Shown: in pieces, positions 16,601-62,800 of the stretch | How positions within the stretch are numbered: position 1 is the stretch's first letter | How the letters are laid out: each line of letters starts with the position of its first letter | NCBI GenBank assembly: GCA_016858145.1 | Contig: JAEHOE010000014.1 | Span: 62,001 to 126,000, forward strand | Direction of reading: 5' to 3' | Length of the DNA: 64,000 bases | DNA from: Edaphochlamys debaryana | Lineage: Eukaryota > Chlorophyta > Chlorophyceae > Chlamydomonadales | Program-made: the position numbers and the translations under genes | Notes under the pieces: model-generated | What the model was told of the DNA's origin: nothing | The model's input: only the letters and a program-made list of their open reading frames with translations | The model's database searches: none

Positions 16601-19600
16601 GCTTTCATTTTCATGATGCAGATTTGCTTACGCTTTGTGCAGTGTGTGCAGTGCATGTCTGCACAAAGCGGAAGCAAATCCTGCAAAATGAAAATGTAAG
16701 CGCGCGAGTGCCCGCTCCACCGCCGAGCCCAGAGCACAAGGAGCCCGCGCAACCCCCCCTGTCCTTCCCCCCTCCCCTCCTCCCCCCCTCGCCTCCCCTT
16801 GCCTCCTATGTCTGCCCCCCCCCCCTCCCCCTCACCTCCTGCATGTTGATCACCCGCCCATAGAACCGGAAGAAGTCCACCAGCAGGGCCGCCATCCCCC
16901 CTACCCCCTTGCCTCCTATGTCTGCCCCCCTCCCCCTCACCTCCTGCATGTTAATCACCCGCCCATAGAACCGGAAGAAGTCCACGAGCAGGGCCCCCAG
17001 GGAGGGCTCCACGGGGCCGCTGGCGCCAGCCCGGGAGGCGGCGTCCACAGTGCCCGCCCGCTGCCGCTGCTCCGGGGCGCTGGGGCCCGCGGGGCCGCGG
17101 CCGCGGCGGCCGCCGCGGCGGCTGCCGCCGCCACCGCCACCGGCGTCGGCTGTGTTGGGAGGGCGGGGGCGGGTGTGGAGTTGGGGTGGAGTGTGGGAGA
17201 TGTGCTGATGTGGACGTGGAGCGGGGCGTGTCCGCTTGCTCTGGGTCAAGCCACGGGTGCATCACCCCGGGTGAGCGGCACCCCCGCTCGCGCTTCCACG
17301 CACGGACACGGCGACTGCCCGCCCCACCTGCCGCCCCCTCGCCTGCCCCCGGCGGTGGCCTCCTGGAGGCGTGCAGCTGCAGAAAGGCCGCCACTAGGGT
17401 CACCAGGCCGTAGCTGCCGATACCGCCTAGGGGGGGGCGGAGCGCGTGGGAGGCTTAGGGGACAGAAAGGGGAAGCGGGGGAGAGAGGACGGGACGAGCG
17501 CATCACCCCCCTGCTGGCTGCGCCCTGCCGCCCTCTCCCTCTGCAATCTCAAGAGCGTCAGGGTCCCGCCTCACTCCGGCCCTTTCAGCACAGGGTCCCG
17601 GGTCTCATCCTCTCTCCCCTCCTCCCCTTTCCTCCCCCTTCCCCTCCTCAACCCCCTCTCACCCCCCCTCACCCGTGTACACTTCGTTCAGCTCCCGCTG
17701 CTGCAGGAAGAGCTTGAGCGTGAGGATGAGGGGCCGCATCATGGGCCAGGCCTGGGTCATCTCGGAGACCAGCACGGCGGCCTGACAGGGGGGGAAGAGG
17801 GGTGGGGGTGGGGGGGGAGGTGAGAGGGGGAGGGGGAGTGAGGGGAGAGGGGGGAGGATGAGACCCGGGAAGACCCTGTGCTGAAAGGGCCAGAGAGCCG
17901 AAACCCATCCGGCTCCGGGCTCCGTACCTGCGGGCCATTGGGCACGTCGAACGAGATGTCGAAGGCCAGATTGCCGTACTCGATGGTCTCGAACTTGATG
18001 ATGGGCACCCGGGCCTTGGCCAGGACCTGACAGGGGAGGGAGAGGGGTGGGGGCGGGGGTCGGGGCTTGAGACCCAACCACCCGGCCACTGCGACTGTGC
18101 GGCAACAGCGCCTCCCCGCTCCCTCCGTCCCCAGCTCCCCCCAGCCTTTTTCCGCCGCGCCTATGCTTCTCTGGCCTGAACCAGCAGCCCTCCACCCACC
18201 CCTCCCACAGCTGAACGCTTCACGACACATCCTGTCCCCTGCCCTCCCTTCTCCTCCCCTGCCCTCCCCCCGCCCCCCGCCCTCCCTCCCCGCCCCGCCC
18301 CCCGCCCTCCCTCCCCGCCCCGCCCCCTCCCCCTCCCCCCCACCTGTATGCTCCGCGCCAGCCCCTTCCCCGCCAGCGCCTTGGCCAGCGCGTGCAGCCC
18401 CCCGGGCAGGTGGCTGCAGCCGCTGCCCAGCACCACCAGGTCCACGTCAGAGGTGGGGACGTAGAGGCCGGTGGCGAAGGAGCCAAACACCACACACCTA
18501 GGGGAGAGGGGGTAGGGGGGGGGAGGGGGTGTTTGTTGCTGAGCGGGATGGTGGGGGAGGGGGAGGGGAGGGGGTTTCTTAATGAGCGGGATGTAGGGGG
18601 AGGGGAGGGGAGGGGTATCAGGGGGGGGGGGGTACGGGGCCAAGGGGGATGGCGGGGAGTGGTGGTGGGAGAGGGAAGCCTCGGCCCCTGCCCCGGAGGC
18701 CGGGGCTGCTTTCCGAATCCGTTTCCTTCGTCCTGACTCCCCCTCATCCCCTTGTGTCTGGCCTATGTCTGCCCCCCAAGGCCCTCCCCCCCCGACCCAC
18801 TCCGCCGAGGGCCACAGCTGCTTGATCACCTCCGACACAGCCGCCACTGCGTCCGCCCGCGCCTGCGCCTCCTCGGGGGTGGGCTGCAGCAGCTCACACA
18901 GCTCCAGCACCTCTGGGGGGGGGCCAGGGGAGGGGGCGGCGGGTTGGAAGAGGGGGGAGCGGAGCGGAGAAGTGGACGGCCCTCCCGGCTGAGGGGTGGC
19001 AGCATCCCCGCTCGCCGCCCCGCGGCACCATCCCCCGCGGGGCCTTCCGGCCATCGCCCATGCGGGCGAACCGCCACCTCCCGCCCCAGGGTCTGGCCAA
19101 GGGCCACCGCGATGACTAGGCCGGGCAGCCGTCGGCCGAGCCACGTGCACTCCCGCACCCTGCCCTCCTGCTCGCATCCGTCCTCGCCTCTGTCCTCGCA
19201 CCGCATGGGCGGCCCGTGTGGACACGCCCCGCCGGCCCCTTCCCCCACCCCCTGGCCCCCGCCCCGCCCGGTCACGCGCTCGGCTTGCCTTGGTGCAGCC
19301 GCAGCAGCGGGCTGTCAATGCGGGAAATGTACGACATCCAGTACGGCCGTTGCCCCAACCGCCGGATCCGCTCGTCCTCCGCGAGCTCGTCCGCGCTGGC
19401 GGGCCCGGTCCCAAAGTTGGGCCCCGCCTGGGCCTGGGCCCCGCCGCCGCCCCCAGCCTTGGCCTGGCCTTTCCCCGGGACGCTGTCCGGCTTTGCGATC
19501 GGGATGAGAGGTATGAAGTCTGCTAGCGGGGCTTTGGCGGGGCCCTCAGATCCAGATTTTGATCCGGGTTTTGCCTTTTCGCCGCCGCTGCCCTCGTCAT

Positions 19601-20506: not shown

Positions 20507-23500
20507 ATGGCCCCTAAGAGTAAAGTCAACCAAGCTAGGCAGCAATTGGAGGCTGCCGAGGAGGACATTCGGCAAAAGGCGCGACGGGGCGCGGGCGAGA
20601 AGGGCGCGCAAGCTGTCGTAATGCGCCATCTCGGCATCACCACAGCGACAGTGCGGGGGCGATGGGGCTCTCCGGGGGAGGGTGGGTGCGCACACTCGCC
20701 GACACGGTTCCCTTCCATGTCCGGATGCTCTGCCATCCACTTGCGACACCGCAGGAGCGGCAGCTAGCGCAGCTCAAGGAGCAGGTCGTCCTCGCACGGG
20801 GACGCATCAACGAGCTAGAAGCTGACGCCTCAACGAGCGCTCGGCTGGAGGATGACGGTGGGCGGGGAGGGGCCAGTCAGCAAGGAGGGCCTCACCCCAG
20901 CGCGAGCTGAGGGTGAATCTACACGGGTTTCCCTGCCATCTCTCTCACGCGATGTTTTAAACCTCCCGCAGTCCAAACGCTGTTGCAGCATCAGCAGCGC
21001 ACGGCGTCCGCGTTCAAGGACTATGAGGTGTGGGGTCAGGGGCCAGGGGGGGCCTCCTCAGCCCTGCAGGCGGGGAATGCAGGCTGGGAGACTAAGGCCC
21101 TGATTAGGCGCTGAGAGTGTGGAGTGCGGCGCTGTAGGGTACAGGGTGCTCGGGGAAGGGATAAGGTGGCCCCTGATGTGCCTCTCCGCGTCCCATTGCC
21201 TCCCCCTCTTACCCTCTTTCCCCCTCCCCCCCCCTTCAGAACCGGGTGCTGGCCCTGGAGCTTCAGGGCCTGGTGGAGCGGTGGCGGGCCATGGACGTGG
21301 AGGTGGGGGGGAGGGGGGGGGGGAGGGGGGAGGGGAGAGGGGAGGGGAGGTGGGGGGGAGGGGGGGTGTTTGAAGCTGATAAGCGGGAGAGCGTCGAATG
21401 TTAGTGGGATTGCCGGAGAAGGTACATACCGCCACAGTGTCCATGATAGGCGTGCGCTGAGGCTGGAGCGAAGCACTATATAACAGACCGGCAGAACGCG
21501 GTGGGGGGGGGAGGGAGGGAGGGGAGGAAGAGGGGGGAGAAAGAGGAGCGGGGAGGGGGGGATGAGGGGGGAAAGGCGGAAGGGCGAAGAGAGGCACAGG
21601 GGCCATGGACGTGGAGGTGAGGTGGGTGAGGGGAAGGTGGAGGGATGGTGCAGGGAAGGAGGGGTATCGCCCGGGTGGCGGCCTACCGGCTGCGGCCGGG
21701 GTGGGGTTGGCGGCCCTTTGGCAGAGGCTCGTAGAGCAGCCGGGTGGTGGCGGCGGGTGAGGACGACCCCTGCCCCTCACCCGCCCGGTGCGGCTGGTGA
21801 AGACCTGACACGTGCGCACCTGCCCCTTGCCGCCCCCACCCCATCCCCTACCCCCCCTCAACCCTCCCTCCCTCCCCCCCACCCCCCAAAACGATATCCC
21901 CTCCCCCCCATCCCCTCTCCCCCCCCCCAGGAGCTTGCCCAGCAGAACCACGACCTGAGGGAGGAGTGCATGCGGCTGCAGCAGGAGAACATGGGGCTGA
22001 GCAGGTGGGGGGGGAGGGGGAGGGGGACACAGGGACAGGGCACGGCCCGGGCAGGTGGAGGCAGGCCTTGGAAGGCGCGGTGGAGAGGGTGGCAGGAGAG
22101 TGCGAGGCAGGGCGGCCCCGGGGCCGAGGCCGCGCGTGGGGGTGGGCAGGGAACGAGGGACGGCAGGGGCTGCCTGGCACAGGCGATGCGGGCTCCTTGC
22201 AGCACTGCTTGGCCTCGTCCCACCGCAAGCGCCACCTCCCCCCCCCCTCCCCCCCCTCACACACAGGACGGTTGCTGAGCACAGCCTGAGCGCCCGCCGG
22301 GACCTGGCCCGCATCGAGCTGGCCCTGGAGCTGACGGTGGGGAGGGGGGGAAAGGGGGGGAAGGAAACGGGGGAGGAAGGCTTTTTGATCTCAGATTAAG
22401 GGATCAGGGACATCGGGATGTGTGTGTGGGGGGAAAGGGCCCTGCCGATGCCGCTCCGCCCCCGCCCCCACCCGCCGTGCCCCTCAGGTGAAGGAGAAGA
22501 TGGCTCAGATGCACGACCGACTGCGGCAGGAGCTGTACGACGAAATGGACGACAAAACCAAAGCCATGGTACGACAGCCGTACGACTGCTGCACGAGCCG
22601 GACACCCGGATGGCACCTGCTTCCGCGCCTCACCCGCTGCCGGCCAACCCCTCACCCACGTACCCCCCTCAAACTCCCTCCCCCCTCCCCCCCTCTTAAA
22701 CCCATCTCCCCCTCCTCCCCTCCCCCCCTCCCCCCCCTGTCAGGTGGCCCAGCACGGCGAGCTGCAGGACCACGTGGCTCAGGTGTCCAGCCAGGCAGCC
22801 ACCCTGGACAGGCAGTTCAGGCAGCTGCAGGTGCGTGTGTGTTTAGGATGCTTAGGGTCGGCGCGTCATAAGTATTAGTGCAGTCGTGAGCAGACCGGCC
22901 GCGGGGAAGAGGCACCAAGCAAACCCGAAAGCTCGTGTGTGTGTGTGTGGGGGGGGGGGTAGGATGATTACTCTTGGGGGCGAGGGCGGCTTTCCCCCTT
23001 CTCCCCGATCCTCCTCCCCCCCCTTTCCTCCTACCCCGCAAGCCGCCCCCTCCCCCCCCTGCAGCTCTACCTCTCCCTTCGCTCTCCCATGCTCCGAAAC
23101 TCATCCCCCTCCCTTCCCCCCTCTCCCCCTACCCCCCTACCCCTACCCCCTACCCCCCCCCAAGGCCGAGCGCGCCCGCTTCAAGGTGGACGCCGACCTG
23201 GCCTCGGGGCTGGGGGAGACGCAGGCGGTGCAGATGGTGGGACTCAAGTGAGGCAGGGGGGGTGGGGGGGGGATGAAGGGGGGGGGGAATGGGGGGGGAA
23301 TGTCAGTGTGTGTGTGTGTGAAGGGGAAGGGGGGCAGGTAGCCTTCCCCTGGGACAGCTGCCCACACAATGAACACCTGCGGCAGGCCTCAACCTGCTCT
23401 CCAGTCCTCTGCCCCACCAGCGGCCCACCTCCCTTCGGCCCCACCCAACCCCGTCCCCATCTCTGCACACACACACCCTCACAGGATGCAGCTGTGACCT

Positions 23501-26500
23501 CCCTACCTCCTCTTCTGCCTTACCTTCTTTCCTCCCCCCTTCCCCTTCCCTCCACCCCCCCACCCCCCAGGAAGCAGCTGCAGCAGGCCTACCAGGTCAT
23601 CGACCTCCTCTCCTGCCTCCTCTTACTAATGTCTTTCCCCTCCTCCCCCTCCTCCCGGCCCCCCCAGGAAGCAGCTGCAGCAGGCCTACCAGGTCATCGA
23701 CCTGCTGCGCCGCCGCCTGGGGGAGAGCGAGGCGCGGGCGCAGGCGGCGTGGGACGAGGCGGTGCGGGCGGGCAGCCGGGCGGCGGCGGCGGCGGCCAGG
23801 GCGGCGGGGGCGGGCGGCGGCGGAGGCGGCGGCGCGGGGGCGGCGGAGGCGGACGCTGACTCGGCGTACGGCATGGCAGGTGAGGGGGCGGAATCAGTCA
23901 TGGGTTGATGGGCATGAGTGATTTGAGGTGGCGAATAGCACGGCACAGTTGTGTGGGGGGCACAGATAGCAAACGGGGGGACTTCAGGGGCGGGTGGGTC
24001 GTGTGGTGTCCTGCTGTATTGTGGGGGAATGTGGGGCCCTGAAGGCTACCGGGAGCCATGAGCCATGCGGTGCTCTTCTTGACCAGTCACCTGCTACCCG
24101 CCGGCATCCTACCGGTGCCTACCGGTGCGCATGCTCCCCAGGCATGGCCCCAACGCTCACCCGGACACAACCCCCCGACGCCCTGAGCCCCCACATACCT
24201 CCTCGTTCCCCCACCCCTCCAAAAGGCGAGGCCGCCGAGGTGGCCGCGCTCGAGCCTCAGCTCCTCCCCTCCCTCCACCAACCTCCTTGCCTCACTCTTC
24301 CACCCCCCATCCCCTATCCCTCCCCCCACCCTTCCTTTCCCCCCACCCACCCCCTCTCAGGCGAGGCCGCCGAGGTGGCCGCCCTGGAGGCCCAGCTTCG
24401 CCACTCCCGTCAGCGCTTCGAGCGGCTGCGGCTGCAGCGGGACCGCTGGCGGGAGCGGTCCACGCTGTACGAGAAGGCGTGCGCGCAGCTGCAGGCGGCG
24501 CTCATGACGCTGCAGGTGAGGGTGGTGGGGGACGGGAGGGGAGGGGAGGGGAGGGGAGGGGAGGGGAGGGGAGGGGAGGGGAGGGGAGGGGAGGGGAGGG
24601 AGGGGAGGGGAGGGGAGGGGAGGGGAGGGGAGGGGAGGGGAGGGGAGGGGAGGGGAGGGGAGGGGACGGGGGGGCTGGGGGGAGGGGCGGCGTGAGTGGG
24701 GGCGTTGGAGAGGGCGTTGGGTGAGGAGCGACTTTGAGGGATCTTTTAAGCTGGAAGTGTAGGGGTCTGCGGCGGGTGGATGTGCCAGCAGTGGGCTGTG
24801 CTGAAATGCGGTTGCAGACGGGAGGCCGCCGCATTTCCTCAAGGCCTCCGCCCCCACCCCCGCACCCCTCACATTTGCTCTTGCGGCCCACCTCCGCCTG
24901 CCCCCCTACCCCTACCCCCCACAGGACCAGATCCGGATGCCCCTGGCGGGCGGAGCCAAGGCCGATCTGTCCGCGATCTGGAGCTCCGCGCCCCGCACCG
25001 GGCCCGGCCCAGGCCCGGGCCCGGGCGACCCAGGGCCCAGTCCAGGCCCAGGCGGGCCCGCCGACGATGGCGCTGGGTGGGGTCGTGGCAGTGCGGTGGG
25101 GTCGTCGCGTCCCTCCACGGCAGGGGGTTACAGCGAAGCCGGGGCGCCCCATGGCCGACTATCCGAGGCCGCCTTTGGGGCTCCATCTGGGATGGGATCT
25201 GGTCATGGGATTGGATTAGGGTACGACGGATGGCCGTCAGGGGGGAGTGGATCTAGGGAGCGGGCGATGTCGGCTCGGCCGGCGGCGGGAGGCGGCGGTG
25301 GGTCAGGCCGGGGCCTGCCGGCGCGGCCGCAGACGGCCGTCCCGGCGGCGGGAAGCCCAACCGTCGCGGCGAGGCGTACGGCCGACGCAATCCGCTCGTC
25401 CATTTTGAATGCGCCGCCGGCGGCGTGGGCGGCGGCGGAGGCCGACGCCGCAGCGGCGGCGGCGGTGGAGGGGCGGTCTGTGTCGCCGCCGGGGCGGGTG
25501 GGCGTGTCACGGCTGTACAGCAATGAGGCGGAGCCGTTCGCCATCGTACGGCAGGTACGGTGGTTGTGAGTCAGCTGGGGCTGGACGGCGCGTGCATGTC
25601 CACTGTGCCCCTCTCCTTCCCGTCACCCTTCAAACCCACCCAGTATCTAATAGCTCCACCCCCTGCCGCCCACCTCATACCTCTCACCCCCGCCCGGTCC
25701 CACCCCCCATCCTACATCACCAACCCCTCAACCCCCCAACCCCCACCCCCTCTCCCAACCGCACCACCCTTCCCCATCCCCCTCCCCCGCTGCAGCTGCA
25801 CCGCGAGCAGCCCATGCATATCCACTGTGCCCCTCCACCCTCCACCCTTTGAACTCACCCAGGTCCTGGACCGCCCCCACCCCATAACCCATACCCCACC
25901 CCCACCCCTTCCCCGCCGCAGCTGCACCGCGAGCAGCCCGGCTGGCCCACGGTGCCCGAGCTGCGCGCCACCAGCCCCACCGCCGCGCGCCGCCTGCACC
26001 CCCACCCCGCCACCCTTGGGGCCACCGCCGCCGCCGCCGCCGCCGCCCTGGGCGCCGCCGTCGCGTCGGCCGTGGCAGCGGGCGGGTCGCCGCTGGCGGC
26101 CCTGGCGGCGGCCCCGTCGGGAGCGGGCGGCGGAGGAGGAGGGGCAGGGGCGGGGGGGGGAGGGGGGATGCGGAGGGCGCCGGGGTCCGTGCGGCCGCAC
26201 AGCGCGCTGCCTGTGTCGGGGTCTGGGCGGAGCGGCGCGGGGGCAGGGTCAGGTTGGGGCGGGTCGTCGAGGCCAGTGTCGGCGAGCCCAGGGCAAGGCG
26301 TGGGCCCCGGGCCCGGGCATGGGCCTGGGCAGGGCCCCGCGGGATTGCCGTGGTTTGGGCCCGGGCGGTCCCTCACGGGCCTGACGAGCTCCTCCCCCGC
26401 AAGCGCGGCGCCGGAGCGGGAGGCGAGCGGCGGTAGCGGCGGCGCGGCTGAGGGAGCAGCGGGCCCCGGACCTGGATCTAGATCTGGATCTGCAGCCGCT

Positions 26501-27930: not shown

Positions 27931-27935
27931 AGTCA

Positions 27936-27942
27936 TATATAG
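27936..27942 (+). promoter_or_regulatory. TATA box of the tail-anchored coiled-coil gene
   Basis: TATATAG at 27936-27942 sits in otherwise GC-rich DNA. It predicts transcription starting near 27965-27970, just before the first ATG at 27973. Confidence 0.6.
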
Positions 27943-27972
27943 CCCCCGCTCCTGAATGCACTCACACTCACC

Positions 27973-43370: not shown

Positions 43371-43500
43371 AGCCACGTGCGACACGCCTGCCCTTTCCTG
43401 CGTCCATGCTTGCCCTCCTCTGACCAAAGCCACCCACGACCCACCCACCCAGGTTGGCCATGTGCGCCATCCCCTCCCACGCCCTACCATTTGCCATGCC
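43371..43500 (-). repeat. Inverted repeat, downstream arm (partner at 42220-42361)
   Basis: This is an inverted, diverged copy of methyltransferase intron DNA placed about 0.4 kb beyond the stop codon and just left of the tRNA palindrome. It includes an antisense copy of the duplicated exon-end/donor sequence. Confidence 0.75.
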
Positions 43501-43595
43501 AGGAGGGGAGGGGGGGGGCTTGGGTGCAGGGTATACTAGGAGGTCTGCGTACTTGGCGGCCCACGCCCTGCGCCACAAGCCTCACAACCAAGTCG

Positions 43596-46502: not shown

Positions 46503-46514
46503 TTGGAGCAGGGG

Positions 46515-47470: not shown

Positions 47471-47869
47471 GTCGACCAGACCTTCGAATCGAGTGCAATT
47501 GGTAGGCTGCTATCACCCCATCACAGACCGATCCGGGTCAACGCCGGCGTCCGTACAGTACGGCAGAACTCACGGTCACCCCGGCCTGCCTGGGTTATGA
47601 GTCACATGGTGGACCCCTGCGGCCCTCTGCCCCCCGACACTGGGCCCCTGCACCTGTCGAGCCCCTACCTTTGGCAGTGCCCATCCGCCGGCCTCCCCCG
47701 ATTCCACAAGGGCCCATCGGGGGATCCCAGCCCCTGCCCGTCCGCCCGCCCGCTCGCCGGCCGGCTTCGAGGTCTGCGGTCCGCGCAGCAACGACCTCAG
47801 TGGGCGCTGGAACCAGGGGCCTTGGGCGACTGACCACCGCTGCCCCCACCGCCCCCGCCTCCGCCGATG

Positions 47870-50800
47870 TCAAAGAGGTTCGGTCGTTCCGCCGACGCCG
47901 CCTTTGGGCTCCGCAGCAGCGAGCCGAAGCTGGGGCTGGGCGTTGGGCCCGTGCTGGGCCCGGACCCGGGCCCGCTCAGGCCCAGGCCGGGCCCCGCCCC
48001 GACCGCCGACCCCTCCCCGCCGCCGCCGCCTCCCGTCCCCGGCCCCCCGCTCGGCATCCCCCCCTTCGTCTAGGCTCCCGCTCCCGCCCGTCCCCAGAGA
48101 GATCGGCGCCGGCTTCCGTTGCCCCGGCGACGCCGTCGGCAGCCTGGCGGCGCCGCCACCTCCTCCGCCGCCGCCGCTCTCCGACGGCGCCAGCGTCGCC
48201 AGCAGATCGTGCCCGCTGCCGCTGAGCCGCCCGGCGCTGCCGCCGCTGGCGCTCATGCGGCGGCCGCCGCCGCCGCCCTGGCTGCTGCGGCGGCGGTTGG
48301 CGGCGGTTGCGTCACCGGACGCGGAGGGCCGCATGTTGAGCTTGCGGCCGGAGGAGGATGACGTGGCCTGGCCGGATGAGGAAGACGAGCGGCCGCCGCG
48401 GCCCATCTCGGATGGCGGCGGCGGCGGTACGACAATCCCGTTGCGGGCGAGCAGCTCCAGGATGTCGTGGCGGCCCTTTTGGTGGTAGCGAAGGGAGGAC
48501 CAGTCCTGAGAGGGGGGGGTGGGGGATGGGAGGGGTGTTGGTTGCTGAGCGGGATCGTGTCGCCCGATAGGGGGGTGAGGGCCGGCTGGCGCTATCTAGT
48601 GGCGGCTTGGGTGCTGTTCTTGAAAGCGGCGGTTGGGTTCGGCCAGGATCGATCGCGCGAAAGGAAACTCAGCGAGACCCCACCAGTTTGGGTAGGTGGG
48701 TTGGGCCCTTGAATCACACACACACCTCCCGTGCCCGCGCAGCAGCTTACCAGTGTACCCCGTACCTCTGCCCCCTCTTGCCTCCTATGTCTGATCCCTT
48801 CCCCCTCCTTGCCCCCCTCACCAGGTTGGGTAGGTGCGGCGAGGCCCCCGCGTCCAGCAGCAGCCGCACCAGCTCCGTGTGGCCCTTGGACACGGCCAGC
48901 TGCAGGGGCAGCGCGCCGGACTGGGGGGGGAGGCAAGAGGGAAGGGGGGGAGGGTCAGACATAGGAGGCAAGACGGGGGGAGGAAAGAGGTGTGGTGAAG
49001 ATAGACGTGGGGTGCATAGCGTAGCGTGCTGACGGGAGAAGACTCCAGATGTCTCGGCCCGAGTTCCCACACTGACCTGCGGTCCCCCCCTTCCCCTTGC
49101 CTCCTATGTCTGACCTCTGTCTGCCCCCCCCCTCCATCCCCCCTCTTACCGTGTTGGCCTGGTTGGGGTCCGCCCCCGCCACCAGCAGGGTGGCCACCAG
49201 GGCGGGGCTGCCCCCGTCCACGGCGGCGGTGAGGATGGTGTCCTCCTGACAGGGGAGGGGGGAGGGGGGTGGGGTGGGTGGGTGGGGGTGGGGTGGGTGG
49301 GGGTGTTTGCAGCGGAGCGGGAGAGCGTCACACTGCCGGTGGGTGAGGCGGAGAAGGTACATGGGGTGGGTGAGGGTGAGGGTGGGGGTGGGGTGAAGGG
49401 CCGGCGTGAGGGGGTGGCGAGGGTAGAAAAACACGGGAGGGCGTCAGTGCGGAAGGCTGTGTCCTGCTGGCGGGGTCAAGAGGCGCAGCGCACAGTCTCA
49501 GCCCGCGAGGGGTCGCGAGGGCCCTTGCCCCTCCCCATCGCTAGATCCGGGTGCGGAGACTCTGGCCCTAACGGAGCGTGCGGGTTGGGTCAACACCTGT
49601 AACGTCTGTTTGTCTGTGGAGAGACTTGTGCTGCAGGCCGTTTGAGATACCAGGGCGGGGTTGAGCAGTATGCCTCTTGAGGGGCCGCGGGGCGACTTCG
49701 CCCATTCCCCCTCTCCACCGCTTCCAACCCCTTCTCCACCGCCGCGGGTTGCAAGCGTCTCAGCCGCGAGGGGGCAGGAAGGCCGCTCCCCTCCCCCCCT
49801 TCCCCACTCCCCGCACCAGCCCCCCAAGTGCGCTCTGGTACTCCCTTTGGACGCTCCACTCGCTACATACACAGGGTCAGCACACCAGCCCCTTGAGCCA
49901 GCTTCGGTTGACTCTGTTACGAACATGAGCTCAGCGCTCGCACCTCGGAACGCGGGGCGACTTCTCCCACGCACCCTCCCCTCTCCTCCGCAACGCCTCC
50001 CCCCCGCTGCCCCCCTCACCTCGAAGAAGGGCGCGTCGGGTGTGGCCCCTGCGTCCAGCAGCGCCTGGATGAGCTCCAGGTTGCCATCACCGGCAGCAAA
50101 GGCCCCTATGGCGGCAACCTGGGGGGGGGGTAGTGGTGACAGGGGGTCAGACATAGGCCAGACATAGGGGATGAGGGGAAAGGGGCAGGGTTGAGCTCCA
50201 GGTTGCCATCACCGGCAGCGAAGGCCCCGATGGCGGCAACCTGGGGGGGGGGGGTAGTGGTGACAGGGGGTCAGACATAGGCCAGACATAGGGGATGAGG
50301 GGAAAAGGGGCAGGGTTGAGCTCCAGGTTGCCATCACCGGCAGCGAAGGCCCCGATGGCGGCAACCTGGGGGGGGGGGAATAAGAGGTGACAGGGGGTCA
50401 GACATAGGCCAGACATAGGGGATGAGGGGAAAAGGGGCAGGGTTGAGCTCCAGGTTGCCATCACCGGCAGCGAAGGCCCCGATGGCGGCAACCTGGGGGA
50501 GGGGGAATAAGAGGTGACAGGGGGTCAGGCACACAGACAGGCAGACAGCGCTACGCAGCCGGTGCATCGCACCCGTCACCCCCGGCTACCGCTGCCCCTT
50601 CCCCCTCACCCATGGAGATACGCCCCCTACCACCCATACCACCCAACCCCTGTACCCACCAGTGGGGACACCCCCACCAGGGTGGTGGCGTTGGCGTTGG
50701 CGCCTGGGGGAGGGGGGAGGGGGGAGGGGGGAGGGGGGGAGGGGGGAGGGGGGGAGGGGGGGAGGGGGCGGAGGGGAGCGCGTGCGAGGGACAGCTCGTG

Positions 50801-53800
50801 GGGTGCGGTTCCCGCCACAAACCTAACTCACAACGCGAGGCGACGCGACGCGCAGCCCTCCCGGGCCAGCGCGATACCCCTGCCCCCGCCCCTTCCACAC
50901 ACACCTCTGCCCCCCGCCACCGACCCTCCCCTCAACCTTGTTTCTTCCCCACCTGCCGCCAGCAAATCTCTTGAAACATCTCCCTCTCTTTGCTCTCCAG
51001 TACCTGGAGCATCACCCCCCCTCCCCACCTTCTCTTTGGCTGCGGTTTGCGCAATTCGTCAAGCGATCACCCCCCTCCCCACCTTCCCCTCCTCCCCCCC
51101 CCCAAAAACCCCTTCCCCTTTCCCCCCCCCCACCTGCCGCCAACAGCAGCTTGACGCACGCAGCGCTGCCCTTGAGGCAAGCCAGGATGAGGGGCGTGGC
51201 GCCGTCCTGGGGGTGGTTGGTGGTTGGCGGTTGGTTGGTTGGCGGTTGGTGGTTGATTGGCCGCACTTAACCAGAGCCCACAACCTCCACCACTTACCCT
51301 CCCCCCTCTTGCCTCCTATGTCTGCCTCCCCCCCTCCCCCCTCTTGCCTTGTCCACCAGGTTGGGCGCCGCCCCCCGCTCCAGGAGCACACGCAGCGCCT
51401 CGTGCCGCCCCTCGCGGGCCGCCACCTCGAGAGCGGTGTGGCCGTGCTGGGGGGGGAGAGGGAAGGGGGGGGACCCGAGTGGAGGAGGGCCACAGCAGCC
51501 AGCAGCCAGCAGCAGGGCCACCACCCCTCCCTCCTCCCCTCTCCTCTACCCCCCCTCTTGCCTCATATGTCTGCCTCCCCCCCCTCCACCCTCACCGCAG
51601 GCTCCGCGGCGCTCAGCGACGCCCCGTGCGCCAGCAGCAGGGCCACCACCCCTCCCCTCTCCCCCCCTCTCGTCTACCCCCCCCCTCGTGCCTCATATGT
51701 CTGCCTCCCCCCCCCTCCACCCTCACCGCAGGCTCCGCGGCGCTCAGCGACGCCCCGTGCGCCAGCAGCAGGGCCACCACCCCTCCCCTCTCCCCCCCTC
51801 TCCTCTACCCCCCCTCTTGCCTCCTATGTCTGCCTCCCCCCTCCCCCTCACCGCAGGCTCCGCGGCGCTCAGCGACGCCCCGTGCGCCAGCAGCAGGGCC
51901 ACCACCCCCTCCCTCCTCCCCTCTCCTCTAACCCCCCCCTCTTGCCTCCTATGTCTGCCTCCCCCCCCCTCCACCCTACTCCGCAGGCTCCGCGGCGCTC
52001 AGCGACGCCCCGTGCGCCAGCAGCAGGGCCACCACCCCTCCCCTCTCCCCCCCTCTCGTCTACCCCCCCTCGTGCCTCATATGTCTGCCTCCCCCCCCCT
52101 CCACCCTCACCGCAGGCTCCGCGGCGCTCAGCGACGCCCCGTGCGCCAGCAGCAGGGCCACCACCCCTCCCCTCTCCCCCCCTCTCGTCTACCCCCCCTC
52201 GTGCCTCATATGTCTGCCTCCCCCCTCCCCCTCACCGCAGGCCTCCGCGGCGCTCAGCGACGCCCCGTGCGCCAGCAGCAGGGCCACCACCCCTCCCCTC
52301 TCCCCCCCTCTCCTCTACCCCCCCTCTTGCCTCCTATGTCTGCCTCCCCCCTCCCCCTCACCGCAGGCTCCGCGGCGCTCAGCGACGCCCCGTGCGCCAG
52401 CAGCAGGGCCACCACCCCTCCCCTCTCCCCCCCCTCTCCTCTACCCCCCCTCTTGCCTCCTATGTCTGCCTCCCCCCCTCCCCCTCACCGCAGGCTCCGC
52501 GGCGCTCAGCGACGCCCCGTGCGCCAGCAGCAGGGCCACCACCCCTCCCCTCTCCCCCCCCTCTCCTCTACCCCCCCTCTTGCCTCCTATGTCTGCCTCC
52601 CCCCTCCCCTCACCGCAGGCTCCGCGGCGCTCAGCGACGCCCCGTGCGCCAGCAGCAGGGCCACCACCCCTCCCCTCTCCCCCCCTCTCGTCTACCCCCC
52701 CCGCTTGCCTCCTATGTCTGCCTCCCCCCTCCCCCTCACCGCAGGCTCCGCGGCGCTCAGCGACGCCCCGTGCGCCAGCAGCAGGGCCACCACCCCTCCC
52801 CTCTCCCCCCCTCTCCTCTACCCCCCCCTCTTGCCTCATATGTCTGCCTCCCCCCCTCCCCCTCACCGCAGGCTCCGCGGCGCTCAGCGACGCCCCGTGC
52901 GCCAGCAGCAGGGCCACCACCCCTCCCTCCTCCCCTCTCCTCTACCCCCCCTCTTGCCTCCTATGTCTGCCTCCCCCCTCCCCCTCACCGCAGGCTCCGC
53001 GGCGCTCAGCGACGCCCCGTGCGCCCAGCAGCAGGGCCACCACCCCTCCCCTCTCCCCCCCTCTCCTCTACCCCCCCTCTTGCCTCATATGTCTGCCTCC
53101 CCCCTCCCCCTCACCGCAGGCTCCGCGGCGCTCAGCGACGCCCCGTGCGCCAGCAGCAGGGCCACCACCCCTCCCCTCTCCCCCCCTCTCCTCTACCCCC
53201 CTCTTGCCTCCTATGTCTGCCTCCCCCCTCCCCCTCACCGCAGGCTCCGCGGCGCTCAGCGACGCCCCGTGCGCCAGCAGCAGGGCCACCACCCCTCCCC
53301 TCTCCCCCCCCTCTCGTCTACCCCCCCTCTTGCCTCCTATGTCCTGCCTCCCCCCTCCCCCTCACCGCAGGCTCCGCGGCGCTCAGCGACGCCCCGTGCG
53401 CCAGCAGCAGGGCCACCACCCCTCCCCTCTCCCCCCCCTCTCCTCTACCCCCCCCTCTTGCCTCCTATGTCTGCCTCCCCCCTCCCCCTCACCGCAGGCT
53501 CCGCGGCGCTCAGCGACGCCCCGTGCACCAGCAGCAGGGCCACCACCCCTCCCCTCTCCCCCCCTCTCGTCTACCCCCCCCTCTTGCCTCATATGTCTGC
53601 CTCCCCCCTCCCCCCTCACCGCAGGCTCCGCGGCGCTCAGCGACGCCCCGTGCGCCAGCAGCAGGGCCACCACCCCTCCCCTCTCCCCCCCTCCTCCTCT
53701 ACCCCCCCTCTTGCCTCCTATGTCTGCCTCCCCCCTCCCCCTCACCGCAGGCTCCGCGGCGCTCAGCGACGCCCCGTGCGCCAGCAGCAGGGCCACCACC

Positions 53801-56800
53801 CCTCCACTCTCCCCCCCTCTCCTCTACCCCCCCTCTTGCCTCATATGTCTGCCTCCCCCCTCCCCCCTCACCGCAGGCTCCGCGGCGCTCAGCGACGCCC
53901 CCGTGCGCCAGCAGCAGGGCCACCACCCCTCCACTCTCCCCCCCTCTCGTCTACCCCCCCTCTTGCCTCCTATGTCTGCCTCCCCCCTCCCCCTCACCGC
54001 AGGCTCCGCGGCGCTCAGCGACGCCCCGTGCGCCAGCAGCAGGGCCACCACCCCTCCACTCTCCCCCCCTCTCGTCTACCCCCCCTCTTGCCTCCTATGT
54101 CTGCCTCCCCCCTCCCCCTCACCGCAGGCTCCGCGGCGCTCAGCGACGCCCCGTGCGCCAGCAGCAGGGCCACCACCCCTCCCCTCTCCCCCCCCTCTCT
54201 CGTCTACCCCCCCTCTTGCCTCCTATGTCTGCCTCCCCCCTCCCCCTCACCGCAGGCTCCGCGGCGCTCAGCGACGCCCCGTGCGCCAGCAGCAGGGCCA
54301 CCACCCCTCCCCTCTCCCCCCCCTCTCCTCTACCCCCCCCGCTTGCCTCCTATGTCTGCCTCCCCCCTCCCCCTCACCGCAGGCTCCGCGGCGCTCAGCG
54401 ACGCCCCGTGCGCCAGCAGCAGGGCCACCACCCCTCCACTCTCCCCCCCCTCTCCTCTACCCCCCCCTCTTGCCTCATATGTCTGCCTCCCCCCTCCCCC
54501 TCACCGCAGGCTCCGCGGCGCTCAGCGACGCCCCGTGCGCCAGCAGCAGGGCCACCACCCCTCCACTCTCCCCCCCCTCTCCTCTACCCCCCCCTCTTGC
54601 CTCATATGTCTGCCTCCCCCCTCCCCCTCACCGCAGGCTCCGCGGCGCTCAGCGACGCCCCGTGCGCCAGCAGCAGGGCCACCACCCCTCCACTCTCCCC
54701 CCCTCTCGTCTACCCCCCCTCTTGCCTCCTATGTCTGCCTCCCCCCTCCCCCTCACCGCAGGCTCCGCGGCGCTCAGCGACGCCCCGTGCGCCAGCAGCA
54801 GGGCCACCAGGGCGGCGCACTCCGCCTCGGCGGCGGGGCCGCAGCCCCAGGGGTGGACCAGGGCGGCCAGGAGGGGCCGCATCTCGGTCTAGGGGGGGGG
54901 AGGAGAGGCAAGAGGGGGGAGGAGGGTTCAGACATATGGGCAAGAGGTAGGGGGGTCGGGAGGAGGGCGGGATGCACCCGAGCCGCACCTGGTCAGGGCA
55001 GCACCTCGGTCCATGCACGAGGGACTGAGCCCCCACGCGCGACACCCCTGTCAAGCTTGGCACCACCGCCAGCGTCCCCCCCTCCCACCGCCCCCACCGT
55101 CTGCCCGCCTCTCTCCCCTTCTTACTTTCCTCCTCTCGCCTCCTACGTCTCCCCCCCCCCCTCCCCCCTCCCCCCTCCCCCCTCCCCCCCCACCTTGCTG
55201 TTCCCCTCCTCCACCAGCCAAGCCACGCTAGCGTCCGCCCCCCTCCGCAGCAGCAGCTCCGCAGTGCCCCGGGAGCCGCGGGAGCAGGCCGCGGCCAGGG
55301 GCGTGAAGCGCCCGCCCACAACACGCCCGCCGGCGCAGGCCTGGCGGGGGGGGGGAGGGGGTTGGGGGCGAGGTAAGGACGGGCGAGGCCGAAAGGTATG
55401 GCGGCAGCCAGCGAGCAGGCGGGTGGATTGGGGAGCTTAGGGGGTGGTGGGATGGGGGTTTGGGGAGCTGGGGGCCAAGGGCCGAGCGGCATCGTGCCGG
55501 AGAGAGCAGAGGGGGGGTGGGGAACCTGGGTGGGCCTGGGTGTTGAGATCAGCATGGGGAAGGACCCCATTTCAAGAAGGCTGCGAAGCAGTGCGCATGC
55601 CCAGCTGTGCCGTACGTACGTGCGATGCCGAGGTGTCGTACTCGTCCAGATCCGCGCCCGCCTCCAGTACGATCTCCACGCATCGGCGGCTGCCGCTGTA
55701 GGCGGCCTGCACCAGGGGGGAGGGGTTCTCCTGCAGGGGGGGCGGTCGAGGGGGTGAGGGGGGTGGCAGGTTTGAGGGGACGTGCAGGAAAGCAAGGGGT
55801 TCGCGGAAGCAGCAAGCGGCTTCTCGCAGGCAAGCGATCGCGAACGGTGAGGACAGTCCCGGCCTCTGCTCCTTTCCACCACCGCCTTTCGTCGGGCCCC
55901 CAAGCCTCCGCCCGCCGCCTCCCCCAAGGCCACCCACCTCCCCCTGCGGCCGCAGCTTGGCCCCCGCCCGCACGAGGAGCTGCAGCGCCTCCGCCTGCCC
56001 CCCCCGGCAGGCGCACCACACGGCCGTCTGGCCGGCCTGGGGGGGGGGGTGGCGGGTGGGGGGGGGGTGGGGGAGATGTTCGGAGCATTGGAGAGCGAAG
56101 GGAGAGATGGGGTGGGGCCGGTGGGGGAGTGGTTGGGGTGTGTAGTGGCATCGCCTCTCCTGGGTTGACTTGGCGTGGGAGCCTCGCAGTCCGCCTCCCC
56201 CCTCCAGCCCCCAACTCCATATTCCCTCTCCACGTGTCTGTCTCCCCCTCCCCCTTGCCTCCTATGTCTGGCCTATGTCAGCCCCCTCCCCCCCATCCCA
56301 CCCCCTTACCGTGTTGGCCTGGTTGGGGTCCGCCCCCGCCACCAGCAGCAGCCGGGCCACCTCCAGGCAGCCCTCGCCGCACGCCGCCATGAGGGGGGTG
56401 GACTCCTGCGGGGGTGGGGTGGGGGTGGGGGTGGAGAGGGAGTGTTGGGAAGGGGAGAGGGAGTATTGGGGAGGGGAGAGGCCGGGATGAGTGTGGCCCC
56501 TCGCAATCGGCCACGGCCCAAACGGTCGAGTACCGGTATTCCCCCTCCCCCCCGAACACCCCGAGCGGCGCCGTCCACCTGCACGGCTGCGCCCCTCCCT
56601 GCATCCCCCGCCTCGCACCACGCCCTGCCCAACATCCATCCGGCTCGCTGGCTGCCGCTCTACCTCTCTTTTCACTCTCCACTGCTCCGAAGATCACCCG
56701 CGTCCAACCCCCCAGCCCCCTCCCCCAAGCCCCAACCCCCCCTTCCCCCCCTCCCCATCACTCCCACCATGGCGAGCCACTCCGAGGGGGGGCACAGCAC

Positions 56801-59800
56801 CCCCACCGCCGCCCCCGCCGCAATCAGCTCCTCCACCAGGGCCCCGCTGTGGTTGAGCACCGCCCCCATGAGGGCCACCCAGCCGTCCTGTCAGGGGGGG
56901 GGAGAGGGATGGGGGGGTGGAGGCAAGGGGTAGGGGGGGTCAGCTCCTCCACCAGGGCCCCGCTGTGGTTGAGCACCGCCCCCATGAGGGCCACCCAGCC
57001 GTCCTGTCAGGGGGGGGGGGAGAGGGATGGGGGGGTGGAGGCAAGGGGTATGGGGGGTCAGCTCCTCCACCAGGGCCCCGCTGTGGTTGAGCACCGCCCC
57101 CATGAGGGCCACCCAGCCGTCCTGTCAGGGGGAGGAGAGGGATGGGGGGGGGAGGCCAAGGGGAGGGGAGGGGTTTCGAAGCTGAGCGGGACTGCGTCGC
57201 CAGGGAGGCGATTGGAGGGGTTCGAAGCGGGGCCGAGTGCGTCGCCAGTAGGAGCACCGTAGGGGGGAAGGGATGCGGCTGACAGAGGAAAGGCCCTGGA
57301 CGAAGGGACCTTGATTTCGGCCGAACCCGGTCCGCATTCCGGTGGTGCCCCCCTCTTCACACGCCCTCCCCACGAGGCCTGGACAACCCTCGAAGCCCCG
57401 AAACCCCAAGCCCCACCCTGCGCGCGTGGTTCGGGTTTGCCCCCGCATTGAGCAGCGCCCGTGCGGCCTCCAGGTTGCCGTCGGTGCAGGCCGTGACGAG
57501 GGGGGTCTGGCCGGCCTGGGGGGGGGGCGGGGAGGGAGTTGGGGGGGGGGGGAGAGGAGGAGAGGGGGGAAGGGGGGAAGGGGTGAAGGGGTCAGGAAAC
57601 TCGAGGGGGAATCCCAGCAGCAGGCCCCAACGAGTGAGTCCTAGCACTCCGCGCAGCACGTGCCGTGCCCCTCCCCCCTCTTGCCTCCCGTGTCTGCCTC
57701 CCCTCCCCCCCCCTCACCGTGTCCGGCAGGTTGGGGTTGGCCCCCTCCTCCAGCAGCAGGCGCGTGAGCCCACCGTGCCGATTGTCCACGGCTATGAGGA
57801 GGGGGGTGACGCCGTTCTTGGGGGGGGAGGGGAGGGGGGAGGGTGTGGGCGGGGGGATGACTTGCGTACGAATTGGAGGTGGGTGGGTGGGTGGGTGGGT
57901 GGGGACGCACTTGAAGGTGTGTCGAGGGGGGGCCTGGCTCGCATCTCCTGCCCACACCCTGCACACACCCACCCACCTTGGAGCCCTGGGTGTTGGGGTC
58001 CGCCCCCGCCTCCAGGAGCACGCGCACAATGTCCATGTACACCTGGGGGGTGGGGGGAGGGGGGGGAAGGTGGGAGGGGGTAGGGGGCCCACTCAACCTT
58101 CCCCCTCACCACCCGGGGACCGCCCCGCTCGCCTCCAGCCCCTCAGCACAGCCCCAAGCTTGCCTGCTCAACCCACCAAGCCCCCTCGGGAGGCCCCCTC
58201 CCCCCACTCCCCCTCCCCCAATCCCTCTCCCCACCTGTGTGCTCGCCCCGCTGACCTCCAGCCCCAGAAAGGACGAAGAGGACAGCCCGCCCACCCCCGC
58301 CAGCGCCGCCAGTACGGACGTCGCCGCGCCCGCCATGAAAGACGGCGCGGATCCAGCGCTCGGCGGCGCGGGCGCAGATCCAGCCCCAGATCCAGATCCA
58401 GATCCTGATCCTGATCCGGTCGATCCGCCGCCGGAGCTGCCGGCCCCGGGTAGGGCCGTTGCGAAGACGGAGGGCGCGGGCGGCGGCGCGGTGGGGGCGG
58501 GCGCGGCGGCTGAGGCGGCGGCGGCGGCGGTGGCGGCGGCGGCGGCGGCGGGGGAGATGAATGCGGATGCACCCCGGCCGAAGGCGAAGGAGAGGGCCGA
58601 GGCGGAGGATCGGGAGGTGAGGGTGAGATTGCGACCTAGGGAGTCGTCGCATTTGGTGGCCACCAGGAGGATGGGGGCGTTGTAGTCCTGGGGGGGGGGG
58701 AAGAGGGATAGGCAGGGGGGGCGGGTTGAAAGGAGCTGGAGAGCGAGGGGGGGGGGGGAGTGAGGGAGAGAGCGACGGGGAGGGGGTGGGCAGACGTAGG
58801 GAGAGGGGACGAGGAGGTGGGGGTAGCGAAAGAGTGGCAGAGTTGCGGGCGGCTTTGGCTTGCGCTTCGCACGGTGGGTGCGGTCGAGGGCGGTACCCCT
58901 CTCGCCCCCTCCCCCTAAACGCCTTCCCCCATTCCCCTTCCCCCCCTTACCACCCTTCCCCCTCCCCCCCCTCCTCACGTTGGGTTGGAACCAGCGCGCC
59001 CCCACGTCCGCCCCCCGCGCCAGCAGCAGCCGAACCAGCTCCAGGTTGCCCAGGTTGCAGGCGATGGAGAGGGCGGCCTTGCCGTTGGCCTGACAGGGGG
59101 GAGGGGGGGCAGACATAGGCCAGACATAGGGGGGTAAGGGGGTGTTTGAAGCTGAGAAGCGGGAGTAAGGGGGAGGGGGGAGGGAGGGCCAGCTCCCCTT
59201 GCCATTGGCCTGGGAGGGGTGGTGGTTTGGGGGGGGGGATGAGTGGGTGAGCCCCGCTACTGACACCCCCTCCAACGGCCTCCTTACGGTCCCCGATCCG
59301 AACCCCTCACGTGCTGGCGCCCCCCCCCCCCCCAACCGCCCCCTCCCCGCCCACCCCACCTCGTTCTTGGCCTCCACCTCCGCCCCCCCCTCTATCAGGG
59401 CCTCCACCAGCTCGGGGGAGCCGATGCGGACGGCCGTCATCAGGGGGGTGACTCCCTCCTGCGGTGGGGTGGGATGGGATGGATGGGGGCATGAGCCGGG
59501 GGCATGGGCGGTGGAGGGGTTCGGGGAAGGATGCACGAGACGGGGGTGACGGGAGCACCGCTGCCGTACAGACATGGGCCATGCCGCCCTCATCCCTCGT
59601 CAGACCGCTGAAGGCCCCGCTCTTTCCCCACTGTTCCGTACCACCCCTCCCCTAAAGCTACCTTGTTGGGCACCTCCGGGTTGGCCCTGCCCGCCAGACC
59701 CCCCTCCCTTGCCTCCAATGTCTGCCCTTCCCCCCCCACCGCCCCCACCTTGTTGGGCGCCTCCGGGTTGGCCCTGCCCGCCAGCCCCCCCTCCCTTGCC

Positions 59801-62800
59801 ACCTATGTCTGCCCTTACCCCCCCTCCCCCCCACCTTGTTGGGCGCCTCTGGGTTGGCCCTGCCCGCCAGACCCCCCTCCCTTGCCACCTATGTCTGCCC
59901 TTCCCCCACTCCCCCCCACCTTGTGGGCGCCTCCGGGTTGGCCCTGCCCGCCAGACCCCCTCCCTTGCCTCCAATGTCTGCCCTTACCCCCCCTCCCCCC
60001 CACCTTGTTGGGCGCCTCCGGGTTGGCCCTGCCCGCCAGCCCCCCCTCCCTTGCCTCCAATGTCTGCCCTTACCCCCCCTCCCCCCCACCTTGTTGGGCG
60101 CCTCCGGGTTGGCCCTGCCCGCCAGCCCCCCCTCCCTCGCCACCTATATCTGCCCTTACCCCCCCTCCCCCCCACCTTGTTGGGCGCCTCCGGGTTGGCC
60201 CTGCCCGCCAGACCCCCCTCCCTTGCCACCTATGTCTGCCCTTACCCCCCCTCCCCCCCACCTTGTTGGGCGCCTCCGGGTTGGCCCTGCCCGCCAGCCC
60301 CCCCTCCCTTGCCACCTATGTCTGCCCTTCCCCCCCCTCCCCCCACCTTGTTGGGCGCCTCCGGGTTGGCCCTGCCCGCCAGCCCCCCTCCCTTGCCACC
60401 TATGTCTGCCCTTACCCCCCCTCCCCCCCACCTTGTTGGGCGCCTCCGGGTTGGCCCTGCCCGCCAGCCCCCCCTCCCTCGCCACCTATATCTGCCCTTC
60501 CCCCCCTCCCCCCCCACCTTGTTGGGCGCCTCCGGGTTGGCCCTGCCCGCCAGCCCCCCCCTCCCTTGCCACCTATGTCTGCCCTTCCCCCCCCTCCCCC
60601 CCACCTTGTTGGGCGCCTCCGGGTTGGCCCTGCCCGCCAGCCCCCCCTCCCTCGCCACCTATGTCTGCCCTTACCCCCCCTCCCCCCCACCTTGTTGGGC
60701 GCCTCCGGGTTGGCCCTGCCCGCCAGCCCCCCCTCCCTTGCCACCTATGTCTGCCCTTCCCCCCCCTCCCCCCCACCTTGTTGGGCGCCTCCGGGTTGGC
60801 CCTGCCCGCCAGCAGCGCCCGCACCAGCGCCGGCTGGTTGCGGGACACGGCGTTGTGGAGCAGGGTCTCCTGCTTGTCCTGTCAGGGGGGAAGGGGGGCA
60901 GACACAGGGGCAGACAAAGGGCAGACATAGAGGGTAAGGGGGAGGGGGAGAGGGGCGGGCAGCTGTGCCTACCTCGAAACCACACTGCAGGCCGCCACCC
61001 TCCGCCCTCCATGCCCATCCCTCACATGTGAACCCCCCTGCCCATGCCCCTCCCCCCTCGCCCCCCCTCCTCAACCCCTCACCGGGTTGACGATGACCTC
61101 GGGGTTGGCCCCCGCGTTCAGCAGCGCCTCCACCACCTAGGGGGGGAGGAGGGGCGGAGGGAGGGGCGGAAAAGGAGGGGTGGGACGTAGAAAGTGGCAC
61201 GGGAAAAGGAGCCGTTGCCCTCAGGTGCTTCATGACTTTGCGCGTCGACCCAGGCGGGGGCATGGAAGCCCCGCATGGAGGCCCCGCCCCCATCTCCTCC
61301 GCTCTGCCCCCACATGCACATCCTCCTGCCGTACGACACCCCCCGTGCCGCACCTGGATGTACTGCTCCGCCGTGGGCTTGGGCTCACACACCTTGGCCG
61401 CTACGGCCATGATGGGGGTCACGTGGCCCTAAAGGGGGGGGCGGGGCGGGAGGTCGTGTCGCACAAGGGTTTGAGAAGGGTTCGTACTGCGAACAGGCCC
61501 ACCCCGGGGCCGCCTTCCAACTGGCTGCCCGGCGCCTGGCCCCGCCCACAGGCCCCACGGCCCCGAGGGGGCCTCAGCGGGGCCTCCACGGGCCCCAAGG
61601 AGCCTCAAGAGGGGCTTCACGGAGCACACGAGGTCAGTTCTGCCAGGCGGGTGGCGCCTCCTCCCCCCCCCCCCCTGCCCCCCCCCTCACCGCCGGCCCG
61701 CTCCACGTGATGTCGGGGCTGGCCTTGCGCTCCAGCAGCAGCTGCACCAGGTCCGTGTTGGCGAACAGGCAGGCCAGCATGAGGGGGCCGCTGCCCGTGG
61801 TCTGGGGGGGGGGGGGGCAGACATGGTTCAGACATGGTTCAGACATGGTTCAGACATGGTTCAGACATGGCTGTGGCAAGCGGCATGCGTTATGCGGCAA
61901 GCGCCAAGCATGCTCCATGCCCCACGCCCCAAGGGCCCCCTACCCACCCCGATTCTCCATGCCACTGCCCCCGTTAAAACGGTTCCTGCTCTCTGGACCC
62001 ATGCCCAACTCCCCCCACGCCCCCCTCCCAAACCCCCTCCCCCCCCACCGTGTTTATGAGCTCCATCTTGGCCCCCTCCTCCAGCAGCAGCTCCACCACC
62101 TCGGTACTGCCCTTGCGCACGGCGGCCATCAGGGGGGTGGAGCCGTCCTGGGGGGAGGGGGGAGGGGAGGGGAGGGCCATAGGTTGGGTGGGGCCTGGTG
62201 CCGCTGCCCACCTGCTGCGTATTTCGCCAGTCTTTCCCGCCCCGGCCCTCCCCCTTCACACACTCCAGTGGCCAGCCCCTGTGGGCCGCACCGCCCCCAT
62301 CCGCCACCTCCCCCGCAATGGCAACCCCGCATCCCACCCCCGAGGCCCCCCCGGCAGCCCAAAGCTGTAGTCTCACAGGCCCACGGCCCCAGCCCCTGCG
62401 CCCGTGCCTCCCCGGCAGCCCCCTCGTGCCCATCCCGCCAGTGGCCTCTCCGACGGTCCGGGGCAGTCTCCCACCGCCCCTCAGTACCAGGACCCGCACC
62501 TGACATGCCCAGCGCCATACCGGTACCACCTGGGCCCCCCACCGCCACCGTGGTGCACCACGCCCCTGCACATGCCAGCCCCTCCAGCCCATTGCACATA
62601 CATACACACACAGCCTAGACCCCCCTGTACCGGCGCCGCTCTTGTATGCTGGTGATCGCGAGCGCAGCCACCAAGCCCTCACCCCTCCGCCCCCCACCCC
62701 CGCCCCGCCGCTTGCCCGCACCTTGGCGAACGTGTTGACCAGCGCCCCCGCCTCCAGCAGCGTCCGCACCAGCTGCGTCTGGCCGTGCAGCACCGCCCAG

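Follow-up and report, generated by a model that had tools for sequence, protein, structure and literature searches.

The window analysed here is a stretch of 64,000 nucleotides from the green alga Edaphochlamys debaryana (contig C14, JAEHOE010000014.1, positions 62001-126000), with a G+C content of 68.5%. According to Pfam it holds a starch synthase gene (6487-10121), a gene for a Cid1-type poly(A) polymerase (13653-19206, the TRF4-like gene) and a gene for an ankyrin protein (47797-63203). Among four other window proteins, one gave a sub-threshold TSP1 match (38.9 bits, cut-off 41) and three gave none; the first gene of the window was outside this search. The names TRF4-like, coiled-coil, LysM-TSP1 and methyltransferase are labels from an earlier note on this DNA. 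The subject of the present work is a set of tandem duplications that span exon-intron junctions in these genes, together with a short dispersed repeat, here called E, that lies at exon edges.

Exon and intron models were produced with a simple hidden Markov gene finder trained on the window and on 20 sample stretches of 10 kb (positions 40001-50000 of contigs C1 to C21, C14 omitted). In these 264 kb, 322 introns were predicted, with a median length of 199.5 bp. In predicted introns of at least 120 bp, nucleotides 6-30 are 54-56% G and the last 30 nucleotides 59-66% C, in window and samples alike; with G-rich starts and C-rich ends, the two ends of an intron are therefore roughly complementary. 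Genome searches covered 141.9 Mb in 502 contigs.

Eleven junction-spanning duplications were confirmed in the window by repeat searches and reading of the letters (Table 1), the largest arrays having about 26, 14, 4 and 3 copies. Such duplications had been claimed in the earlier note, and they are real: the duplication in the TRF4-like gene, the four sites in the coiled-coil gene and the copies at both ends of one exon were all recovered. For the ankyrin gene five exons had been named; four edges there are strong, but at a fifth, the donor edge of exon 48822-48920, the copy is weak (score 14.5), and the exon numbers given could not be matched one to one. A copy claimed for the LysM-TSP1 gene amounts to about 15 bp by eye, near 38083, and failed the register-aware tests described below. 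The statement that the duplicate is always in the intron and keeps the splice site agrees with what was seen, but the same is expected of any mRNA-neutral tandem duplication that spans a junction, because it follows from geometry and selection.

In the register-aware test, an exon edge is counted when a copy of it lies within its own intron and ends at a splice dinucleotide; decoy exons were removed by hand. In the window 12 of 150 edges had such a copy and in the samples 3 of 465, compared with 6 of 4245 mismatched pairs, so that the duplicates are more common than chance. With decoys kept, an earlier version of the test scored 9 of 77 introns in the window and 3 of 226 in the samples, and its mismatched tests scored 3 of 6060. 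A model-free scan found two further sample sites, L010 and L027, the former of which may be a coding repeat, and gave 0 matches with reversed sequence; its complexity filter lost the two largest arrays, which come from the repeat search and reading. Exon-edge copies are real, occur elsewhere in the genome and are several times denser in the window. The earlier description of them as pervasive thus fits the window, but elsewhere they are sparse.

Overlooked in the earlier note was E itself, a small, G-rich repeat of the approximate form [G/C]TGGGGGGGGAGGCAAGAGGGGGCAGACATAGG. It spans about 35 nt at one edge, of which a core of about 25 bp is conserved, and the sequence outside the core varies between copies. 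Three donor arrays of the window have closely similar intron starts, CAGACATAGG followed by (A/T)GGCAAG, and one acceptor array carries the core as its reverse complement. GGCAAG alone was dropped as a sign of E, being present without the remaining motif at 41 of 236 sample acceptor ends. The 17-mer CAGACATAGGAGGCAAG has 36 exact matches in the genome and its reversal 0; with up to 2 mismatches, 89 matches were found against 6 for the control. For GGCAAGAGGGGGCAGACATAGG with up to 3 mismatches, the corresponding numbers are 105 and 1. Among 100 GGCAAGAGGGGGCAGACATAGG matches listed, 44 are located on C43, C49 and C61, which make up 1.6% of the genome (tandem copies counted singly). E occurs at 14 of 158 window edges and at 1 of 489 sample edges. 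Its spread is patchy, being rare and clustered, and E is common to unrelated genes. In a prokaryote collection, 12 contigs contained one 17-mer each, which is about the chance level by simple arithmetic, and no exact 22-mer was found in viral contigs.

Seven 17-mer loci outside the window were fetched without regard to duplication and one tandem ten-mer locus was added; in all eight the motif is just within an intron end. Twenty ten-mer matches taken in list order included 7 of E type, reading outward, and 13 judged to be chance matches because they have no G-rich edge context; the latter were excluded from the counts of E. Seven tandem clusters chosen on purpose have E at edges in every case and exon-edge arrays in six. 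A tandem run of E at the donor edge of L062 has no exon copy between its units, and is a different kind of growth from the exon-edge arrays.

E lies no more than about 60 nt from the edge and, whether at a donor or an acceptor, reads outward from the exon. Where a core lies no more than 60 nt away, decoy edges included, the distance is 2-53 nt, and 26 of these edges begin with GT and 28 with CT; cores beyond 60 nt are array copies, the L062 run and a chance match in L054. A fresh test set consisted of 20 22-mer matches, ten of them exact and previously unread and ten with 1-2 mismatches. Among these, 17 read outward at no more than 60 nt from a predicted edge and one more did so at 64 nt; L080 and L083 failed. 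Generic G-rich words were near an edge and outward in 30-57% of cases. E is in the sense direction at donors and antisense at acceptors, which points to a process at the DNA level and would speak against an RNA intermediate. When introns wholly inside the fetched stretches are counted, E is present at both ends in 0 of 31 E introns of the unselected loci (34 loci fetched only for E, by 17-mer, ten-mer or 22-mer), in 1 of the 13 E introns counted in the window and in 3 of 16 at tandem-selected loci.

The anatomy of the duplications was examined in 25 arrays listed by hand from the window and other loci. The unit is 86-135 bp long (mean 114), of which 18-70 bp (mean 45) are exonic; outside this range fall the site at 21.3 kb, with 314 bp, and one in L029, with 76 bp. 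Identity between copies is 75.8-97.0%. The exonic part of the unit begins with GG in 12 of 25 units against a background of 12.5%, a figure inflated by alignment extension. The E core is common to 18 of the 25 arrays. In a scripted check, 8 of these 18 had E only between the exon-edge copies and none past the farthest one (the window arrays at 50.1 and 59.6 kb, two in L005, and L034, L045, L057 and L058). In the 51.5-kb window array and in L061, a truncated exon copy ends the array beyond the last E. A common process, as the earlier note proposed, is plausible; a mobile element acting at junctions, also suggested there, is a possible but doubtful agent.

E and duplication go together. In the unselected loci a junction copy is present at 7 of 35 E edges; the remaining edges at these loci have one in 7 of 163 cases (p 0.004), or in 4 of 109 (p 0.005) when the comparison is restricted to G-rich edges without E. 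The edges in these comparisons are not independent, because several loci share contigs. The window shows the same tendency, with copies at 5 of 14 E edges and 7 of 136 others, and the samples have copies at 3 of 464 edges without E, 3 of 235 if only G-rich ones are counted.

Table 1. Features of the window connected with exon-edge duplication and with E (window positions)
Feature	Positions	Strand	Remarks
TRF4-like gene, donor-side duplication	16795-16999	-	2 copies, 105-110 bp unit, E core in both
Coiled-coil gene, donor-side copy	21286-21665 (21286/21600)	+	314 bp apart, decayed, without E core
Coiled-coil gene, acceptor-side duplication	23542-23718 (23542/23639)	+	97 bp period, 81% identity, without E core
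Coiled-coil gene, acceptor-side duplication	24224-24408 (24224/24359)	+	135 bp period, 86% identity, without E core
Coiled-coil gene, acceptor-side duplication	25743-25939 (25743/25871)	+	126-128 bp period, 77% identity, without E core
Short copy of start of exon 41899-42058 in preceding intron (acceptor side)	41777-41807	+	score 21.5
Short copy of end of exon 41899-42058 in following intron (donor side)	42117-42137	+	score 19
Ankyrin gene, acceptor-side array	50067-50531	-	4 exon-edge copies, about 125 bp; E outward (+ strand), core absent past farthest copy
Ankyrin gene, donor-side array	51505-54809	-	about 26 copies of 127 bp (exon edge + GT + E); truncated exon copy at end
Ankyrin gene, acceptor-side array	56824-57172	-	3 copies, 116-118 bp; AGGCAAGGGG present, CAGACATAGG core absent
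Ankyrin gene, donor-side array	59660-60813	-	14 exon-edge copies, 86 bp; E-less intron past farthest copy
E core, 15 nt inside donor end of intron 16036-16201	16177-16186	-	duplication not detected
E core, 29 nt inside donor end of intron 18498-18800	18762-18771	-	duplication not detected
E core, donor end of intron 48921-49149	49103-49112	-	sole window intron counted with E at both ends
E core, donor end of intron 51207-51356	51315-51324	-	duplication not detected
Variant E core CAGACATATG, acceptor side of exon 54757-54888	54929-54938	+	same variant in array on other side of exon
E core, donor end of intron 56037-56309	56261-56270	-	duplication not detected
Doubled E core, acceptor end of intron 59090-59359	59110-59130	+	duplication not detected
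Degenerate E cores, acceptor side of exon 60777-60878	60899-60931	+	other side of exon is the 86-bp array
Exon 17673-17781 between inverted copies of complex intron sequence (17574-17667, 17799-17895)	17574-17895	.	score 43.3, control maximum 24.7
Exon 48822-48920 between outward E cores (48784-48793, 48956-48965)	48784-48965	.	score 30.7, control maximum 24.7

E often starts at GT or, in reverse, at AG, and copies without E in the same arrays carry a splice site too. At three loci the exons joined across the arrayed intron match a known protein with no gap at the join: an aspartyl aminopeptidase (L058), a glutamine-dependent NAD synthetase (L060) and an ABCA transporter (L061). The proteins thus fit the use of the exon-proximal splice sites. 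Variable columns number 3 of 52 exonic and 12 of 25 non-G intronic in the 127-bp array, and 4 of 36 and 6 of 19 in the 86-bp array; these counts were not used as evidence of selection on the decoy exon copies, since slippage in G-tracts inflates the intronic variation.

The analysis shows the duplications, E and its outward reading at donors and acceptors, the excess of copies at E edges, the confinement of E to the space between copies in 8 of 18 arrays, and the continuity of protein at three loci. The reading preferred here, tentatively and at roughly even odds, is that repair or template switching takes place at exon-side G-runs and that E enters as filler. Here an exon would adjoin a long G-run on its outward strand, and the copies would arise at the level of DNA. 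We infer a break or stalled synthesis in the G-run, after which repair synthesis would restart at another G-run; a restart upstream in the exon would duplicate the exon edge and its splice site as a unit of about 114 bp. During this excursion synthesis would often pick up a copy of the short, G-flanked module E from a different exon edge, usually one close by, and the product would be exon edge, E, exon edge and original intron in that order. Unequal exchange or slippage could later amplify the unit to arrays. Because splicing would keep to the exon-proximal site, the copies would be nearly neutral and the intron would be lengthened.

Several observations weigh against this reading. No break, polymerase or donor copy was identified. 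In 9 of the 18 arrays with the core, E is also found past the farthest edge copy (in degenerate form in L002), and in one, L047, partially so, so that E often came before the duplication. E edges that show no copy are the majority, both in the unselected loci (28 of 35) and in the window (9 of 14), and 17 junction copies are at edges without E (7 in the unselected loci, 7 in the window and 3 in the samples). E may since have disappeared from older copies, and the older duplications may themselves have decayed. Composition explains part of the outward reading, though not all of it, because intron starts are G-rich and ends C-rich. The spanning of junctions is in itself only modestly above neutral expectation. 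Moreover, the exon edges are the predictions of one gene finder, with a check of protein likeness at three E loci only.

A bolder interpretation, which we consider possible though on the unlikely side, is that E spreads in a novel way: as an exon-edge module flanked by G and lacking transposon machinery, it would be copied between edges through its coupling to repair, often dragging exon edge and splice site with it. Such copying would carry E from place to place within a gene, from one gene to another and, inverted, to the far side of an exon, and introns would grow as they accrete decoy junctions. At L047:601-780, a single exon is flanked by closely matching, inverted E copies (score 35.8, control maximum 27.9); this sequence arrangement and that around exon 48822-48920 hint at copying across an exon, and the inverted intron copies around exon 17673-17781 also support it. 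The flanks of exons 54757-54888 and 60777-60878 have similarities of 21.1 and 22.4, both under the control maximum. The 99th percentile of controls is exceeded by 3 of 70 window exons, 5 of 202 sample exons and 2 of 67 exons at E loci, and a strict inverted-repeat search at E loci found none. Inverted copying across exons was therefore not upheld as a general rule, few exons exceeding the controls, and is kept as suggestive.

As the main rival to the repair reading, it is doubtful, although part of the evidence suits the idea, that E is a very short, non-autonomous, introner-like mobile element inserting at exon-side G-runs with long, variable target duplications and forming arrays afterwards. 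Its dispersal among unrelated genes, its conserved core and the 8 of 18 arrays in which E stands between target copies with E-less intron beyond would fit such an element. The duplicated exonic part, however, is variable in length, the sequence outside the core varies, most unselected E edges have no copy at that edge, and E at both ends was never found in the E introns of the unselected loci. No full-length element was seen, in E searches alone. Introners, as described in the available text of PMC9860276, are dispersed, intron-tied repeats, often with a splice site at the end, and green algae are among their hosts; in these respects E is similar. They are, according to the same text, introns alike in sequence, and some families have 3-9 bp target duplications or terminal inverted repeats, whereas E occupies one edge of the intron. 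A 159-bp search for end-to-end intron similarity gave nothing beyond C14 but matches of about 40-50 bp, on C190 and C41, and the interiors of E introns are unlike each other as judged by eye, without alignment. The exonic part of the present duplications is longer than a 3-9 bp target duplication, in a search that covered duplications of 10 bp or more. An introner with terminal inverted repeats was suggested by intron 48921-49149 and rejected because E at both ends is rare. E is not a classical introner.

Plain tandem duplication by slippage or repair in G- and C-rich introns, filtered by selection and with E as a passenger, appears improbable. It draws on a simulation of 877 random duplications of 86-135 bp, each touching an intron and including at most one junction, in which 359 of 609 detected duplications (59%) took in at least 10 bp of exon; junction-spanning is for this reason the commonest neutral outcome of such duplications. 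The junction copies at edges without E suit this explanation, as do the genic sites of the samples, two of four spanning a junction and two being intron-only. All 12 genic sites found in the window or at loci fetched for E alone span a junction (p about 0.002 by simple arithmetic), with seven from the window, four from 17-mer loci and one from ten-mer E loci; an intergenic site in L034 is excluded. L002, L005 and L036, with four junction sites and one intron-only site, were kept out of this count because they had been fetched for their likeness to the duplications. The explanation is weakened by the test at E edges, where copies are more frequent than at G-rich edges without E in the same loci and in the samples.

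It is very unlikely that selection maintains E at edges for a splicing or structural role, with duplication following passively. Its edge position and outward reading would agree with such a role, and the inverted E pairs at 48784-48965 and L047 could pair in RNA and loop out the exon, with skipping or circular RNA as the result. The RNA sequence of E, however, is opposite at donors and acceptors, E is nearly absent from the sampled edges, and its clustering suggests copying over independent selection. An assembly artefact is scarcely credible, for although short tandem repeats can be mis-assembled and the analysis rests on the assembly, the copies differ by substitutions and age over the range of identities given above, and the same structure recurs at unlinked loci.

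Repair with E as filler has partial counterparts in known systems. In intron gain by tandem duplication (Rogers, Hellsten 2011 and a potato RdRp case, as presented in the available part of PMC4974935), exon and intron are likewise duplicated in tandem with the splice signals of the parent junction, and the copies found here include these signals. There a new intron is born, whereas in the present case an intron already in place becomes longer, protein continuity holds at the three checked loci and E lies between many copies. Breaks with protruding ends have been reported to yield tandem duplications when repaired (PMC5730883, with Schiml 2016 cited there); in the portion of that paper available, direct duplications arise at the break, as would be the case here, and E between copies may be filler at a breakpoint, as in break repair. 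Those duplications occur at nuclease cuts and not at exon edges, and that portion mentions no recurrent common filler. Direct repeats near splice sites, reported as traces of DNA insertion (PMC11782384, in the text available), are similar in lying at intron borders; they measure 4-30 bp, while the units here are 86-135 bp and on one side of the intron. No description of this pattern was found in searches of open-licence PMC papers, the supplementary species lists of the introner survey aside.

The lengthening of introns and the origin of new ones are difficult to trace, since most events are old. According to the accessible text of PMC8226300, introns in this algal group are strikingly long, and the cause is not known. 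One genome seems to hold several stages together: single E at edges, two-copy duplications, decayed copies and an array of 26 copies. An edge-anchored DNA process marked by a recognisable repeat would make intron lengthening testable by comparison of isolates, and would be a steady source of decoy splice sites.

Other repeats were also observed in the window. An inverted repeat of 400 bp with 97.75% identity (10219-10617 and 13035-13434) lies between the starch synthase and TRF4-like genes and is possibly a recent mobile element pair. Inverted repeats at 42097-42370 and 43355-43502, in and after the last intron of gene 41498-42979, resemble the ends of a 1.4-kb element. A minisatellite with units of 60-72 bp (1-711) lies in the last predicted exon of the first gene, and a (GGGGA)n tract of 160 bp (24528-24687), 92% regular, directly follows a donor site.

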